Assembly (NCBI GenBank): GCA_016790165.1
Contig: JAEUPL010000021.1
Span: forward strand, 124,001-188,000
Direction: 5' to 3'
Origin: Burkholderiales bacterium
Lineage (GTDB): Bacteria; Pseudomonadota; Gammaproteobacteria; Burkholderiales; Casimicrobiaceae
Length of the DNA stretch: 64,000 bases
A program made the translations under genes and the position numbers. The notes beneath the pieces are model-generated. The model had not been told where the DNA came from. It ran no database searches and saw nothing but the letters and a program-made list of their open reading frames with translations. Positions 54,606 to 62,037 of the stretch are shown in pieces (position 1 is the first letter of the stretch; every line of letters begins with the position of its first letter).

Positions 54606-57032
54606 TCAAGCAGTTTTCACAGGCCAGCGATCATAAAGCTTCACTGCAACGCGCTCGCCCCAAAGCTCGATGGCTGCGGGTGTACCGGTGTGCGCGACAT
54701 TGGCTCCGGCCCCACGCACATAGCCCAGCGCCACGCACGCGCCGGCCAGTGGGCTCCATCCCACGGACGCAATCTCGCCCACCGTTTCACCGTTGAGCAC
54801 AATGGATTCGCCGCCCCAGGCGTACGCTGCCGACGAATCGAACACGAGGGTCACGAGTTTCTTGCGCAATGGTTTGCCTTGCGATGCGACCGAGGCCGCC
54901 TTGCCGATGAACTCGGCATCGCGATCCAGCTTCACGGCGTAGGCCAGGCCCGCCTCCCACGGAGACTCATCCGGCCCCAGTTCGGCGCCCCAGGCGCGGC
55001 GGCCCTGTTCGATGCGCAATGCATCCAGCGCGTAGTAGCCAGCGTCCCTCAGGCCGAGGTCGGCACCCGCCTCGTGCAGCGCGAGGTACACGTGCCGTGC
55101 CATCTCGACGGGAACGTACAACTCATAGCCCGGCCCGCCGACATAGCTCATGCGCGCAGCGCGTACTCGCGCAAAACCCACATCAATCTCGCGCGTCCAC
55201 GAAAACTTGAGCGACGCCGGTGTCATGTCGTCCGGGCTCACGCGGGCGAGCAGTGCCGGCGCGTTCGGCCCCATCACGGAGAGCACCGCGTATTGCGTGG
55301 TGACGTCCGTCAGCACAGCGAACTCATCGCTGCCGATGTGCCGCGATATCCAGTCAAAGTCCCGCGTCGTCTGCGCCGAGCCGGTGATGATCAGAAAGCG
55401 GTCAGCGGCCAACCGAATCACGGTGAGATCGCTCTCAAATCCACCGCGCGCATTCAGCATGGCGGTGTAGACCATGCGATCCACCGGTACGTCCACTTCG
55501 TTGGCACACAGTCGCTGCAACACCCCGAGCGCGTCGCGCCCCTGCAGCAGGAGCTTCGAGAATGAGGTCTGGTCGTAGAGCGCCACCGCCTCGCGCGTGG
55601 CGCGTTGCTCCTCGATCATCCACGACAGCCAGCCGGGTGTGCCCAGCGTGTGGTCCGGACGCGCCGCTCCAGGCGGCTTGAAGTAATTGGCGCGCTCCCA
55701 GCCGTTCTTGCTGCCAAACTCCGCGTTCTTGCTGGCGAGCAGGTCGTACAGCGGCGACGTGCGCAGCGGGCGGGCCGTCTCCAGCTCCTGTCGCGGCCAG
55801 CGCATCGCGTAGTGCAGGCCGAGCGTCTCAGCGGTGCGATCGAACAGCGCGCGGCGATTGCCCGTGAAACTCCCAAAGCGCCTGATATCCACGTCCCACA
55901 GATCGCCCGGCGGCTCGCCGCCAACGATCCACTCAGCAATCAGGCGCCCGGCACCGCCGGAGTTGGCGATGCCCGCCGAGTTGAAGCCAGCAGCGACGAA
56001 GTAGTTGCGCAGCTCCGGCGCCTCACCAAGGATAAAGTTACCGTCAGGCGTAAAGCTTTCAGGCCCGTTCAGCAGCATCTTGATCTCGGCCGTTTCGAGG
56101 CACGGCGTGCGATGGATCGCGTTGGTCATCAGGATTTCGAACTGATCCCAATCCTCGCCGAGCAGTTCAAACTGGAACGTGGATGGAATCGGATCCACTG
56201 TCCACGGCTTGGCCTTCGGCTCGAAGCCCCCCATCAGCAGGCCACCGACTTCCTCCTTGTAGTAGATAAAGCCATCCGGGTCGCGCACCACAGGCATCAT
56301 CGGGTCCACGCCGCCGATCTTGCCGGTCACGATGTAGAAATGCTCCGCCGAATACAGCGGCACGTTCACGCCCGCAAGGCGCCCGAACTGCCGCGCCCAC
56401 TGACCGGCACAGTTCACCAGCACCTCGCAGCGCACGTCACCCCGCGTGGTACGCACGCCGACAGCGCGCCCGCGCTCGACGATCACCCCGGTGACTTCGA
56501 TGTCCTCTACGATGCGTACGCCACGATTGCGGGCGCCCTTGGCGAGTGACATCGCGAGGTCCGCCGGATTGGCTTTGCCATCGCCCGGAATCCAGATCGC
56601 GCCCGTCAGGTCGTCCGTCCGCATCACCGGCACCCGCTCGAGAATCTCGGCACGCGAGATCTCGTGGACCTCAACACCGAAGCTCCGCGCCAGCGCGATC
56701 TGCTTCTTGAGCACTTTCAGGCGCTCTGGCGTCGCCGCAACGTTGACGCTGCCACACTGCTTCCAGCCCGTCGCCAGGCCGGTTTCCGCCTCCAGCGTCG
56801 AGTACAGCTCAATGCCGTACTTGCTCATCTGGGTCATGTTGCGGTTGGGCCGCATCTGGCCGATCAGGCCGGCGGCGTGCCATGTGGTGCCGCAGGTGAG
56901 TTTGCCCTGCTCCAGCAACAGCACATCACGTTTACCCAGTTTGGCGAGGTGATAAGCCGTCGAGCAGCCCGCGATACCGCCGCCAACGATGACCACTTCC
57001 GCCTGAGCAGGCAACATAGATGATTGGGACAT
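54606..57032 (-). CDS. FAD/GcvT dehydrogenase (dimethylglycine/sarcosine dehydrogenase-like)
   Basis: An 808-residue enzyme of the dimethylglycine dehydrogenase family. The N-terminal DAO-type FAD domain begins EVVIVGGGIAGCSTAYHLAK (residues 12-31) and has CGTTWHAAG, where His52 matches the residue that holds FAD covalently in dimethylglycine dehydrogenase; a GcvT/aminomethyltransferase domain follows (about 425-800), which in known relatives passes the removed methyl to tetrahydrofolate. Inside a phosphonate operon, oxidation of an N-methylated aminophosphonate is a plausible role. It starts 13 bases after the EamA stop. Substrate is not shown by sequence. Confidence 0.88.
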   Translation of the reverse strand: MSQSSMLPAQAEVVIVGGGIAGCSTAYHLAKLGKRDVLLLEQGKLTCGTTWHAAGLIGQMRPNRNMTQMSKYGIELYSTLEAETGLATGWKQCGSVNVAATPERLKVLKKQIALARSFGVEVHEISRAEILERVPVMRTDDLTGAIWIPGDGKANPADLAMSLAKGARNRGVRIVEDIEVTGVIVERGRAVGVRTTRGDVRCEVLVNCAGQWARQFGRLAGVNVPLYSAEHFYIVTGKIGGVDPMMPVVRDPDGFIYYKEEVGGLLMGGFEPKAKPWTVDPIPSTFQFELLGEDWDQFEILMTNAIHRTPCLETAEIKMLLNGPESFTPDGNFILGEAPELRNYFVAAGFNSAGIANSGGAGRLIAEWIVGGEPPGDLWDVDIRRFGSFTGNRRALFDRTAETLGLHYAMRWPRQELETARPLRTSPLYDLLASKNAEFGSKNGWERANYFKPPGAARPDHTLGTPGWLSWMIEEQRATREAVALYDQTSFSKLLLQGRDALGVLQRLCANEVDVPVDRMVYTAMLNARGGFESDLTVIRLAADRFLIITGSAQTTRDFDWISRHIGSDEFAVLTDVTTQYAVLSVMGPNAPALLARVSPDDMTPASLKFSWTREIDVGFARVRAARMSYVGGPGYELYVPVEMARHVYLALHEAGADLGLRDAGYYALDALRIEQGRRAWGAELGPDESPWEAGLAYAVKLDRDAEFIGKAASVASQGKPLRKKLVTLVFDSSAAYAWGGESIVLNGETVGEIASVGWSPLAGACVALGYVRGAGANVAHTGTPAAIELWGERVAVKLYDRWPVKTA

Positions 57033-57045
57033 GCGCGATCCTCCG

Positions 57046-57909
57046 TCAGGCCAGACGCAACGCCATCACCCCCGCCACGATGACGCAGGTGCCGAGCGCT
57101 CGCCGCGCCGTAAATTGTTCCTTGAGCAACCAGGTGCCGAGCAGCGCGGCGAAAAGTACAGATGTTTCGCGCAGCGCCGCTACCGTGGCGACCGGCGCGC
57201 GGGTCATGGCCCATAGCGCGATGCCGTACGAACCCAGCGACGCCAGAGCCCCGCCCATTGCCACGGGCCAGCGTTTGCGTGCATACGGCCAGGCCGCGCG
57301 GCCGCGCCGGGCGAGCACGATGAAGGCAAACGGCCATCCGTCCAGCACAAAGAGCGCCACCACATATTGCACGGCGTTGCCGGATGCGCGTGCCCCCAGC
57401 GCATCAATCACGGTATACACCGCGATGACGACTGCATTGGCAAGTGCAAACAAGGTGGCGCGGCGATTGTCGAGCGCATGGCGACTGAGTCCCAATACCA
57501 GTACCCCCGCGCAAATCCCCATCACCCCCGCCCAGCCAAGCGGCGTCAGCGACTCACCGACCGTCATCACCGCCGAGAACGCAACCAGCATGGGCGCCAC
57601 ACCGCGCATGAGCGGATAGGTCAGACCCATGTCGCCGTGCTTGTAAGCCCCGGCGAGAGCGATGTAGTAGCCAATGTGGATGATGACCGACGCCAGGATG
57701 AAGGGCCACGAAGCACTGCCAGGCAAGCCAACCACCAGCAGCAACGGCAGCGCAATCAACGAGCCGAGCAGATGGATGAGGGCCGTATCGAGTGCCTTGT
57801 CCGTGCTCGATTTGACCAGTACGTTCCAGCTGGCGTGCAGCAGGGCGCCGAACAGGACGACCAGCACAACCGGCCAGGTCAGCGCCAGCGGTACAGCAGG
57901 CGACGTCAT
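57046..57909 (-). CDS. EamA/DMT family transporter
   Basis: A 287-residue membrane protein with about ten hydrophobic segments arranged as two EamA repeats (ASWNVLVKSSTDKALDTALI early; SVLFAALLGTWLLKEQFTA late). DMT transporters export or import metabolites. ATG 57909 overlaps the HD-gene stop as ATGA and gives a clean start before the first helix. It may move an aminophosphonate or its product; which direction is unknown. Confidence 0.9.
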   Translation of the reverse strand: MTSPAVPLALTWPVVLVVLFGALLHASWNVLVKSSTDKALDTALIHLLGSLIALPLLLVVGLPGSASWPFILASVIIHIGYYIALAGAYKHGDMGLTYPLMRGVAPMLVAFSAVMTVGESLTPLGWAGVMGICAGVLVLGLSRHALDNRRATLFALANAVVIAVYTVIDALGARASGNAVQYVVALFVLDGWPFAFIVLARRGRAAWPYARKRWPVAMGGALASLGSYGIALWAMTRAPVATVAALRETSVLFAALLGTWLLKEQFTARRALGTCVIVAGVMALRLA

Positions 57910-61227: not shown

Positions 61228-61236
61228 AGCTGGGCC

Positions 61237-62037
61237 TTAAGCGGCTTTGGTTTCCCGTTGAGTGTTCTCGCCCGACGCCGTGCGGCTCTGCCGCCGCAAG
61301 TCGTTGGCGATCGTGCGTTCCTTGCTTTCCATGACGTGATCGAACATGGCGCGGCCGGCGGCCTCTGGGTCACCCGAGGCGATGGCTTTCAGAATCTGGC
61401 GATGTTCTCCCGCCGAGATCGGCATCAGCCAGCCGTCGGCCAGATTGAGCCGGCGGAACAGCGCGAGCTCCTTGATCAGTTTGCGGTAGATCGATGTGAG
61501 CTTGCGGTTGCCCACCATCTCGACCAGACGGTCGTGAAACTTGAGGTTCAGGAGGTGATAGGTGCGCGTATCGTTCACCTTGACCGCGCGCTCCATGGCG
61601 TCGACGAGCGCCTTGATTTCCTTTTGCTGTGCGGGCGTGATGTTCTTCGCCAGCTGACGGCCCACGAGCTCATCCATCGCCGCGCGCAGGTCGAAAATTT
61701 CGATCGCCTCGTCAATGGGGATATCGCGCACGAACACGCCCCGGTTCTTCTCGGTACGAACGAGTCCGGCCTCTTCCAGCATCCGGAACGCCTCGCGAAC
61801 CGGGCCGCGGGAGACGCCCATCTTTTCAGCCAGGGTGGCCTCCACCAGCTTGCTGCCGGGAGCGTACTCACCGGCGAGAATCGCGCGCTCGATGTCCTGC
61901 TGCACCAGCGTGGTCAGCGAACTGGTCTGCAACAGCGCGATGGTTGCCAGCGAATCGCCGGTGAGCGCGGACGCCGGCGGCAGGACAGGCGCAACGCCAG
62001 TCGTCGCCCCGTTGATGGCGTCGACATCAGCGGCCAT
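61237..62037 (-). CDS. GntR (FadR subfamily) transcriptional regulator
   Basis: A 266-residue regulator with an N-terminal winged helix (VQQDIERAILAGEYAPGSKL, LAEKMGVSRGPVREAFRML) and a C-terminal FCD-type effector domain with metal-binding His/Asp. An in-frame ATG at 62100 exists, but the predicted promoter of this operon (-10 at 62099-62104) would overlap it; ATG 62037 has a GGGGAGGTG ribosome site and is chosen. It is the first gene of the phosphonate operon and probably controls it through the palindrome at 62116-62135. Confidence 0.9.
   Translation of the reverse strand: MAADVDAINGATTGVAPVLPPASALTGDSLATIALLQTSSLTTLVQQDIERAILAGEYAPGSKLVEATLAEKMGVSRGPVREAFRMLEEAGLVRTEKNRGVFVRDIPIDEAIEIFDLRAAMDELVGRQLAKNITPAQQKEIKALVDAMERAVKVNDTRTYHLLNLKFHDRLVEMVGNRKLTSIYRKLIKELALFRRLNLADGWLMPISAGEHRQILKAIASGDPEAAGRAMFDHVMESKERTIANDLRRQSRTASGENTQRETKAA

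Follow-up and report, generated by a model that had tools for sequence, protein, structure and literature searches.

The 64,000-nucleotide stretch analysed here (the window) comes from a Burkholderiales bacterium of the Casimicrobiaceae (GCA_016790165.1, contig JAEUPL010000021.1, positions 124,001 to 188,000) and carries, near its right-hand end, a phosphonate (phn) gene cluster encoding an 808-residue protein in which an FAD-binding DAO domain is fused to a GcvT domain (the FAD/GcvT enzyme; Table 1). On the minus strand, from 62100 to 54606, the cluster encodes PhnR, PhnA, PhnY, an HD-domain oxygenase, a DMT-family transporter and the FAD/GcvT enzyme, in that order, with intergenic gaps of -4 to 51 bp that are consistent with a single transcription unit. 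The phnR reading frame begins at 62100, position 62037 representing an internal methionine. An initial annotation of the stretch had recognised PhnY, PhnA, a PhnZ-like oxygenase and a transporter in this operon, and TIGRFAM scores bear these assignments out, the transporter falling just below its cut-off. The same annotation had described the operon as lacking the transaminase PhnW, and had named a PhnW just beyond the window edge in the same operon as the finding that would speak against this; such a gene was found, strictly speaking in the divergent arm of the cluster. It begins 2344 bp beyond the right window edge and 10 bp after the 2-aminoethylphosphonate (AEP) permease gene, as the fourth gene of a divergent phnS-phnT-phnUV-phnW run that has its promoter region in common with the minus-strand operon. 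The apparent absence of PhnW was therefore an edge effect of a window that ends before phnW, and PhnW, PhnY and PhnA of the PhnWYA pathway are all encoded in one cluster.

Table 1. Features of the phosphonate gene cluster in the window and immediately beyond its right-hand edge.
Feature	Position in window	Strand	Basis
FAD (DAO) + GcvT enzyme, 808 aa, DMGDH/DMGO type	54606..57032	-	Pfam, rat DMGDH match, structure model
His52 codon, predicted covalent FAD attachment	56877..56879	-	alignment with DMGDH/DMGO His
DMT-family transporter (phn_DUF6)	57046..57909	-	TIGR03340, 278 bits (just below cut-off 288.15)
HD-domain oxygenase, PhnZ-like (Phn-HD)	57906..58475	-	TIGR03276, 238 bits (cut-off 214.6)
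phnY, phosphonoacetaldehyde dehydrogenase	58489..59949	-	TIGR03250, 858 bits (cut-off 635.65)
phnA, phosphonoacetate hydrolase	60001..61227	-	TIGR02335, 608 bits (cut-off 407.55)
phnR, GntR/FCD regulator	61237..62100	-	TIGR03338, 333 bits (cut-off 271.5)
Candidate PhnR operator GATTGTCAACAATCTG	62119..62134	.	in phnR/phnS gap, shared divergent promoter region
phnS2, AEP ABC transporter binding protein	62359..63396	+	TIGR03261, 498 bits (cut-off 392.75)
phnT2 ATPase, truncated by window edge, start uncertain	63357..64000	+	TIGR03265, partial score only
phnUV2, fused AEP permease, outside window	window-equivalent 64594-66333	+	TIGR03262, 782 bits (cut-off 593)
phnW, outside window	window-equivalent 66344-67468; contig 32:190344-191468	+	TIGR02326, 479 bits (cut-off 400.8)

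Pfam models matched both halves of the FAD/GcvT enzyme (DAO 253, FAO_M 67, GCV_T 247 and GCV_T_C 49 bits), and the solved relatives detected by sequence were rat dimethylglycine dehydrogenase (DMGDH; 473 bits), human DMGDH and dimethylglycine oxidase (DMGO; 330 bits), with whole-length identities of 35% to rat DMGDH and 31% to DMGO. An AlphaFold model built from 54 sequences reached a pLDDT of 91.8 and a pTM of 0.91 (an earlier model from 22 rows reached a pLDDT of only 74), with TM scores of 0.94 to rat DMGDH with tetrahydrofolate (THF; 4pab) and 0.89 to DMGO. As modelled, the enzyme is of the architecture found in DMGDH, DMGO and sarcosine dehydrogenase, DAO fused to GcvT, with the same fold over its full length. 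No NCBIfam model scored above its cut-off among the best 25 of 45 rows, the enzyme reaching 65.8 bits on TIGR03364 (cut-off 285.1) and 26.5 on TIGR03329 (cut-off 632.8).

Relatives of the FAD/GcvT enzyme recur beside phn genes across many bacterial families. Within the window's own family, 36 of 64 genomes (its own included) hold a match at E<=1e-100, and a scan of one genome from each of 84,980 species returned at least 588 relatives, of which the best 80, 84 to 45% identical, were used. The set of loci combined the family loci with these relatives and a few from other searches, four duplicates (L117, L127, L128 and L129) being excluded from the counts, as was L095, in which a FAD/GcvT gene also lies near phn genes. 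Among the 116 relatives at 45% identity or above, 56 were phn-linked, 23 had readable flanks without core phn genes, and 37 had flanks too short to judge. By identity, the linked, unlinked and unjudged loci numbered 28, 3 and 9 at 65% or above (n=40), 24, 8 and 4 at 54-65% (n=36), and 4, 12 and 24 at 45-54% (n=40); below 45% they numbered 3, 2 and 16 (n=21). The enzyme itself led to 49 of the 56 linked loci, and searches with phnA or phnW to the other seven (L083, L085, L200-L203 and L206), without which 49 of 72 readable loci are phn-linked. PhnA is encoded in 47 of the 56, PhnY in 45 and PhnX in 3, so the repeated linkage to phnA and phnY that the initial annotation had proposed looking for is indeed present. 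The AEP importer gene phnS neighbours the FAD/GcvT gene in 37 of the 56. Linked organisms include Mesorhizobium, Shinella, Sinorhizobium (pSymB), Ensifer, Cupriavidus, Paraburkholderia, Reyranella, Ruegeria and Methylobacterium, as well as one planctomycete metagenome-assembled genome in which phnW and the FAD/GcvT gene are 2 bp apart.

Residue conservation was assessed in 53 phn-linked proteins of at least 50% identity and at least 700 residues. His52 aligns with the covalent-FAD histidine of DMGDH and DMGO, as the initial annotation had claimed, and is a histidine in all 53 proteins; it is the predicted site of covalent FAD attachment. Also invariant are H231 and Y257, which align with the catalytic His225/Tyr259 dyad of DMGO, and D535, kept in 52 of 53, aligns with the folate-site residue Asp552 of that enzyme (D552A being entry 3gsi); the DMGO numbering was checked against the alignment and an entry title, and a reference title also names His225/Tyr259. 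Y522, Y630, E637 and R673 are each present in 53 of 53. Such conservation of folate-site residues would be surprising in an inactive GcvT domain; it argues for a functional folate site, and hence for methyl oxidation yielding 5,10-methylene-THF. The residue following His-Ala is alanine (the Ala54 column) rather than proline, which resembles DMGDH, a dehydrogenase, more than the oxidase DMGO at this putative O2 gatekeeper position.

These likenesses raise the alternative of an ordinary dehydrogenase for dimethylglycine or sarcosine, serving the demethylation of glycine betaine that TmpA/TmpB-like oxygenases would produce from trimethyl-AEP. The nearest solved enzymes are indeed DMGDH, and the HD oxygenase of the operon scores 160.7 bits on the TmpB model NF049941; that score, however, lies below the cut-off of 300, whereas the cut-off of the Phn-HD model is exceeded, and 40 of the 56 linked loci showed no HD gene, with the 1-hydroxy-AEP lyase PbfA in its stead in 13 of those 40. 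The linked loci moreover centre on PhnA and PhnY, PhnW or PhnX, with C-P lyase genes alongside in one Pandoraea locus. In a DAO-domain tree, rat DMGDH clusters with distant paralogues in a group that does not include the FAD/GcvT enzyme (SH-aLRT 99), and the phn-linked label needs 12 changes against 40.9 with shuffled labels. The tree was built from 122 rows by a quick method that gave long-branch warnings; above 52% identity, rows with short flanks were dropped, as were proteins shorter than 700 residues and near-copies. Taken with the gene content, this makes an ordinary dehydrogenase of glycine betaine breakdown rather improbable.

Of 55 genomes with the FAD/GcvT gene, 52 also have a PhnW that scores above its cut-off, and since it accompanies the enzyme in this way the latter is no substitute for PhnW, contrary to what had first been proposed. 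The three genomes without a PhnW hit are draft assemblies, 81-86% complete, and all 20 good-quality genomes of the set have PhnW. The set is non-random, mostly picked for phn linkage, and comprises 31 of the 35 other matching genomes in the family (G002, G025, G030 and G051 omitted), five of 16 further genomes of the order (all phnA-positive) and 19 of 80 named loci (17 phn-linked); a 399-genome sample of the order provides a less selected comparison. There, 10 of the 11 genomes matching at 1000 bits or more have PhnW, against 38 of 388 others (p 3e-9); this p value ignores relatedness, the 1000-bit threshold was set after the scores were known, and linked members supplied most of the profile. 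PhnA was present in 9 of the 11, while nine genomes with weaker matches had PhnW in none and PhnA in one, and the remaining genomes had PhnW in 38 of 379. Where linked loci extend at least 9.9 kb to both sides (n=20), PhnW lies within 16, and in the other four (L118, L120, L123 and L135) it is found less than 4 kb beyond the stretch examined; PhnW is thus in the cluster in all 20, a count helped by the fact that PhnW was itself among the six genes used to class a locus as linked. Constant presence of PhnW is what would be expected if the product of the enzyme were AEP.

Flavoenzymes acting on N-methylated AEP have already been described. According to excerpts of PMC10590968, PbfC and PbfD, and probably PbfB, convert N-methyl-AEP to phosphonoacetaldehyde, the FAD of PbfC is non-covalent, the three are never found together in one cluster, and TIGR03364 represents PbfD1; TIGR03329 (Phn_aa_oxid) presumably corresponds to PbfB. 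On a plasmid of Azospirillum sp. B510, a single DAO gene was found in the 31 kb around phnW, encoding a 410-residue one-domain protein between phnX and pbfA that has no GcvT domain and an arginine at the FAD-histidine column. We assigned this protein as a PbfC candidate from cluster content and the published statement, not by accession; it fits the reported cluster of phnWX, pbfA and PbfC, and the non-covalent FAD. No PbfB-, PbfC- or PbfD-type gene was recognised in the 56 linked FAD/GcvT loci. Three of these (L120, L175 and L199) hold another DAO open reading frame, the one classified (L175) being a D-amino acid dehydrogenase by model. Since TIGR03329 or TIGR03364 was in turn found in 5 of 35 phnA loci without a FAD/GcvT gene, the FAD/GcvT enzyme appears to fill the same optional slot as PbfB, PbfC and PbfD.

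This shared slot, together with the lack of recognised co-occurrence, could mean that the FAD/GcvT enzyme is functionally a PbfC, oxidising the CH2-N bond of N-methyl-2-aminoethylphosphonate (M1AEP) to phosphonoacetaldehyde and methylamine, with a GcvT domain that is structural or disposes of a side product. The DAO domain is about 30% identical to the B510 candidate, and Table 1 of PMC12366243 (FEBS J 2025) assigns pbfC to M. ciceri; in the genome of strain WSM1271 of that species, the best PbfC-like place is the FAD/GcvT gene, at 31% identity. The strain in that paper is given by accession only, and the listing and this match together indicate that its 'pbfC' probably includes some FAD/GcvT members. 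Against functional equivalence, the B510 protein has neither GcvT domain nor FAD-linking histidine, in keeping with the non-covalent FAD reported for PbfC, whereas the DAO domain of the FAD/GcvT enzyme has more in common with that of rat DMGDH (40%), the folate-site residues are conserved, and PhnW is in the cluster of every full-flank linked locus. We consider a PbfC-like function unlikely. The expectation that a GcvT-fused enzyme of this kind would be new consequently holds only in part: no description of the GcvT-fused phosphonate-cluster type was found in a limited search of the literature, but FAD enzymes oxidising N-methyl-AEP had been published (PbfB, PbfC and PbfD; PMC10590968, in excerpt) and FAD/GcvT genes probably figure as pbfC in PMC12366243.

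A different N-alkyl aminophosphonate, such as N-methyl-1-hydroxy-AEP, a glyphosate-like compound or N-methyl-aminomethylphosphonate, might also be the substrate. Phn-HD is encoded in 16 of the 56 linked loci and PbfA in 13, never both (chance 0.006 if independent, relatedness ignored), and the two may represent alternative routes to use 1-hydroxy-AEP. In Pandoraea locus L138 (6380-9813), one of three from that genus, the FAD/GcvT gene adjoins the C-P lyase genes phnN and phnG. However, 27 of the 56 linked loci show neither HD oxygenase nor PbfA, and phnS, for AEP import, is often nearby; we regard such a substrate as very doubtful.

On balance, we favour, at a probability of roughly one half, a reading in which the FAD/GcvT enzyme oxidatively demethylates N-methyl-AEP, and perhaps N,N-dimethyl-AEP, to AEP, passing the methyl group to tetrahydrofolate; it would then probably be an accessory demethylase of the PhnWYA pathway, acting alongside PhnW. 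The covalent FAD would oxidise the N-methyl group of M1AEP, possibly also of its dimethyl counterpart M2AEP, and the resulting methylene iminium would pass through the interior of the protein to the GcvT domain, to be trapped there by THF as 5,10-methylene-THF, leaving AEP. Human DMGDH reportedly has a covalently bound FAD and an internal chamber and uses folate capture (PMC5082570, in excerpt). PhnW would then transaminate AEP to phosphonoacetaldehyde, which PhnY and then PhnA would convert to acetate and phosphate, with the electrons from the flavin probably passing to electron-transferring flavoprotein or quinone rather than O2. In this scheme we infer the substrate, the C-N bond oxidised, the FAD linkage, folate capture and the electron acceptor; as to the earlier proposal of an N-methyl-AEP substrate and transfer of one-carbon units to folate, the domains and residues fit an N-methyl-amine demethylase feeding folate, and the identity of the amine is suggested by gene context.

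Several observations weigh against demethylation to AEP. PbfC and PbfD oxidise M1AEP to phosphonoacetaldehyde and methylamine, not AEP (excerpts of PMC10590968 and PMC10574752), and PhnW is needed for plain AEP and was used to define linkage, so that its presence is no proof of an AEP product. Readable flanks lacked core genes in 11 of 76 loci at 54% identity or above and in 12 of 40 at 45-54%, and one strong-match genome of the order sample (G132) had neither PhnW nor PhnA. A search for phosphonate-specific residues found none, because R61, K259 and E325, like K275, are also kept in relatives without a phn link.

Somewhat more tentatively, these enzymes may constitute a fourth, hitherto undescribed class of flavoenzyme in phosphonate clusters, one that carries a folate domain and demethylates both mono- and dimethyl-AEP to AEP with delivery of the methyl carbon to the folate pool. 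The published N-methyl-AEP oxidases give methylamine, PbfD also hydrogen peroxide, whereas the GcvT-fused enzyme would keep the carbon as methylene-THF and yield AEP; the demethylation reading accordingly predicts dependence on PhnW. If correct, it would establish a direct and widespread link between phosphonate and one-carbon metabolism in alphaproteobacteria, betaproteobacteria and at least one planctomycete, and many bacteria whose annotation suggests simple AEP use (Sinorhizobium, Mesorhizobium, Ensifer, Cupriavidus and roseobacters) would also be able to live on methylated AEP. Genes labelled 'FAD-dependent oxidoreductase', and probably 'pbfC', would split into two chemistries with different products.

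A candidate PhnR operator, also written as TTGTCAACAA, lies in the gap between phnR and phnS. Its core, TTGT[CT][AG]ACAA, is present in 30 of 31 divergent phnR/phnS gaps of phn clusters in this order (0.021 sites expected over all 31 from base composition), many of the gaps coming from one family and being non-independent, and is missing from that of L084. Searched on both strands with up to two mismatches, the 16-mer occurs at a single place in its own genome. Were PhnR to bind there, the shared operator would let it regulate phnW together with the FAD/GcvT operon. An Rfam scan of 53500-64000 gave zero matches.

Further genes border the cluster. A NUDIX hydrolase gene (53799-54593) lies 12 bp downstream of the FAD/GcvT gene, stays adjacent to it in six same-genus loci (L039-L041 and L043-L045), and is a possible final gene of the operon. 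Downstream of phnW (L005:15570-19495) are glutamine-synthetase-like, Fe-alcohol dehydrogenase and aldehyde dehydrogenase genes, none over a curated cut-off among the matches listed. A role for them as a methylamine sink working with the FAD/GcvT enzyme was considered and rejected, 67-85% identical genes being present in L082, from a genome (G297) in which the enzyme profile found nothing at E<=1e-150. Some 9 kb from the FAD/GcvT gene, Pandoraea locus L138 also has a region resembling a TIGR03364-type flavoenzyme.

A second FAD/GcvT lineage, about 40% identical, also occurs near phn genes (L135:10001-12385 and 12584 onward; L071 and L073). In Shinella kummerowiae (L135) both lineages stand tail to tail; this is possibly a two-step pair that, if the demethylation reading is correct, might perform the dimethyl and monomethyl steps in turn, like DMGDH and sarcosine dehydrogenase. 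In eight loci (L168, L171, L176, L185, L190, L192, L193 and L195), a phn-unlinked or unjudged relative (47-49%) lies near a DMGDH-like paralogue (33-37%), perhaps as a sarcosine/dimethylglycine dehydrogenase pair.

Compared with known systems, the FAD/GcvT enzyme shares with DMGDH (rat 4pab/4p9s, human 5l46) and DMGO (1pj5, 1pj6 and 3gsi) its architecture, predicted fold and whole-length homology, together with the FAD-linking histidine, the His/Tyr dyad and the folate-site residues, but differs in its phosphonate-cluster setting and its separate branch in the DAO tree, and has an aspartate at the DMGO-552 column where DMGDH has a glutamate. Like PbfC, it is an FAD amine oxidoreductase of AEP clusters found without another recognised Pbf flavoenzyme, whereas PbfC is a stand-alone, non-covalent FAD domain. 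PbfD/TIGR03364 and TIGR03329 proteins are likewise FAD enzymes in the optional slot of phnA clusters, and the FAD/GcvT enzyme scores far below both of their cut-offs. In contrast to the TmpAB pathway of trimethyl-AEP, the HD oxygenase here is under the TmpB model cut-off. For the PhnWYA pathway, PhnW, PhnY, PhnA, PhnR, phnS2 and the AEP permease are all over cut-off and phnT2 is partly scored; to this pathway the cluster adds an HD oxygenase and a candidate folate-linked demethylase.

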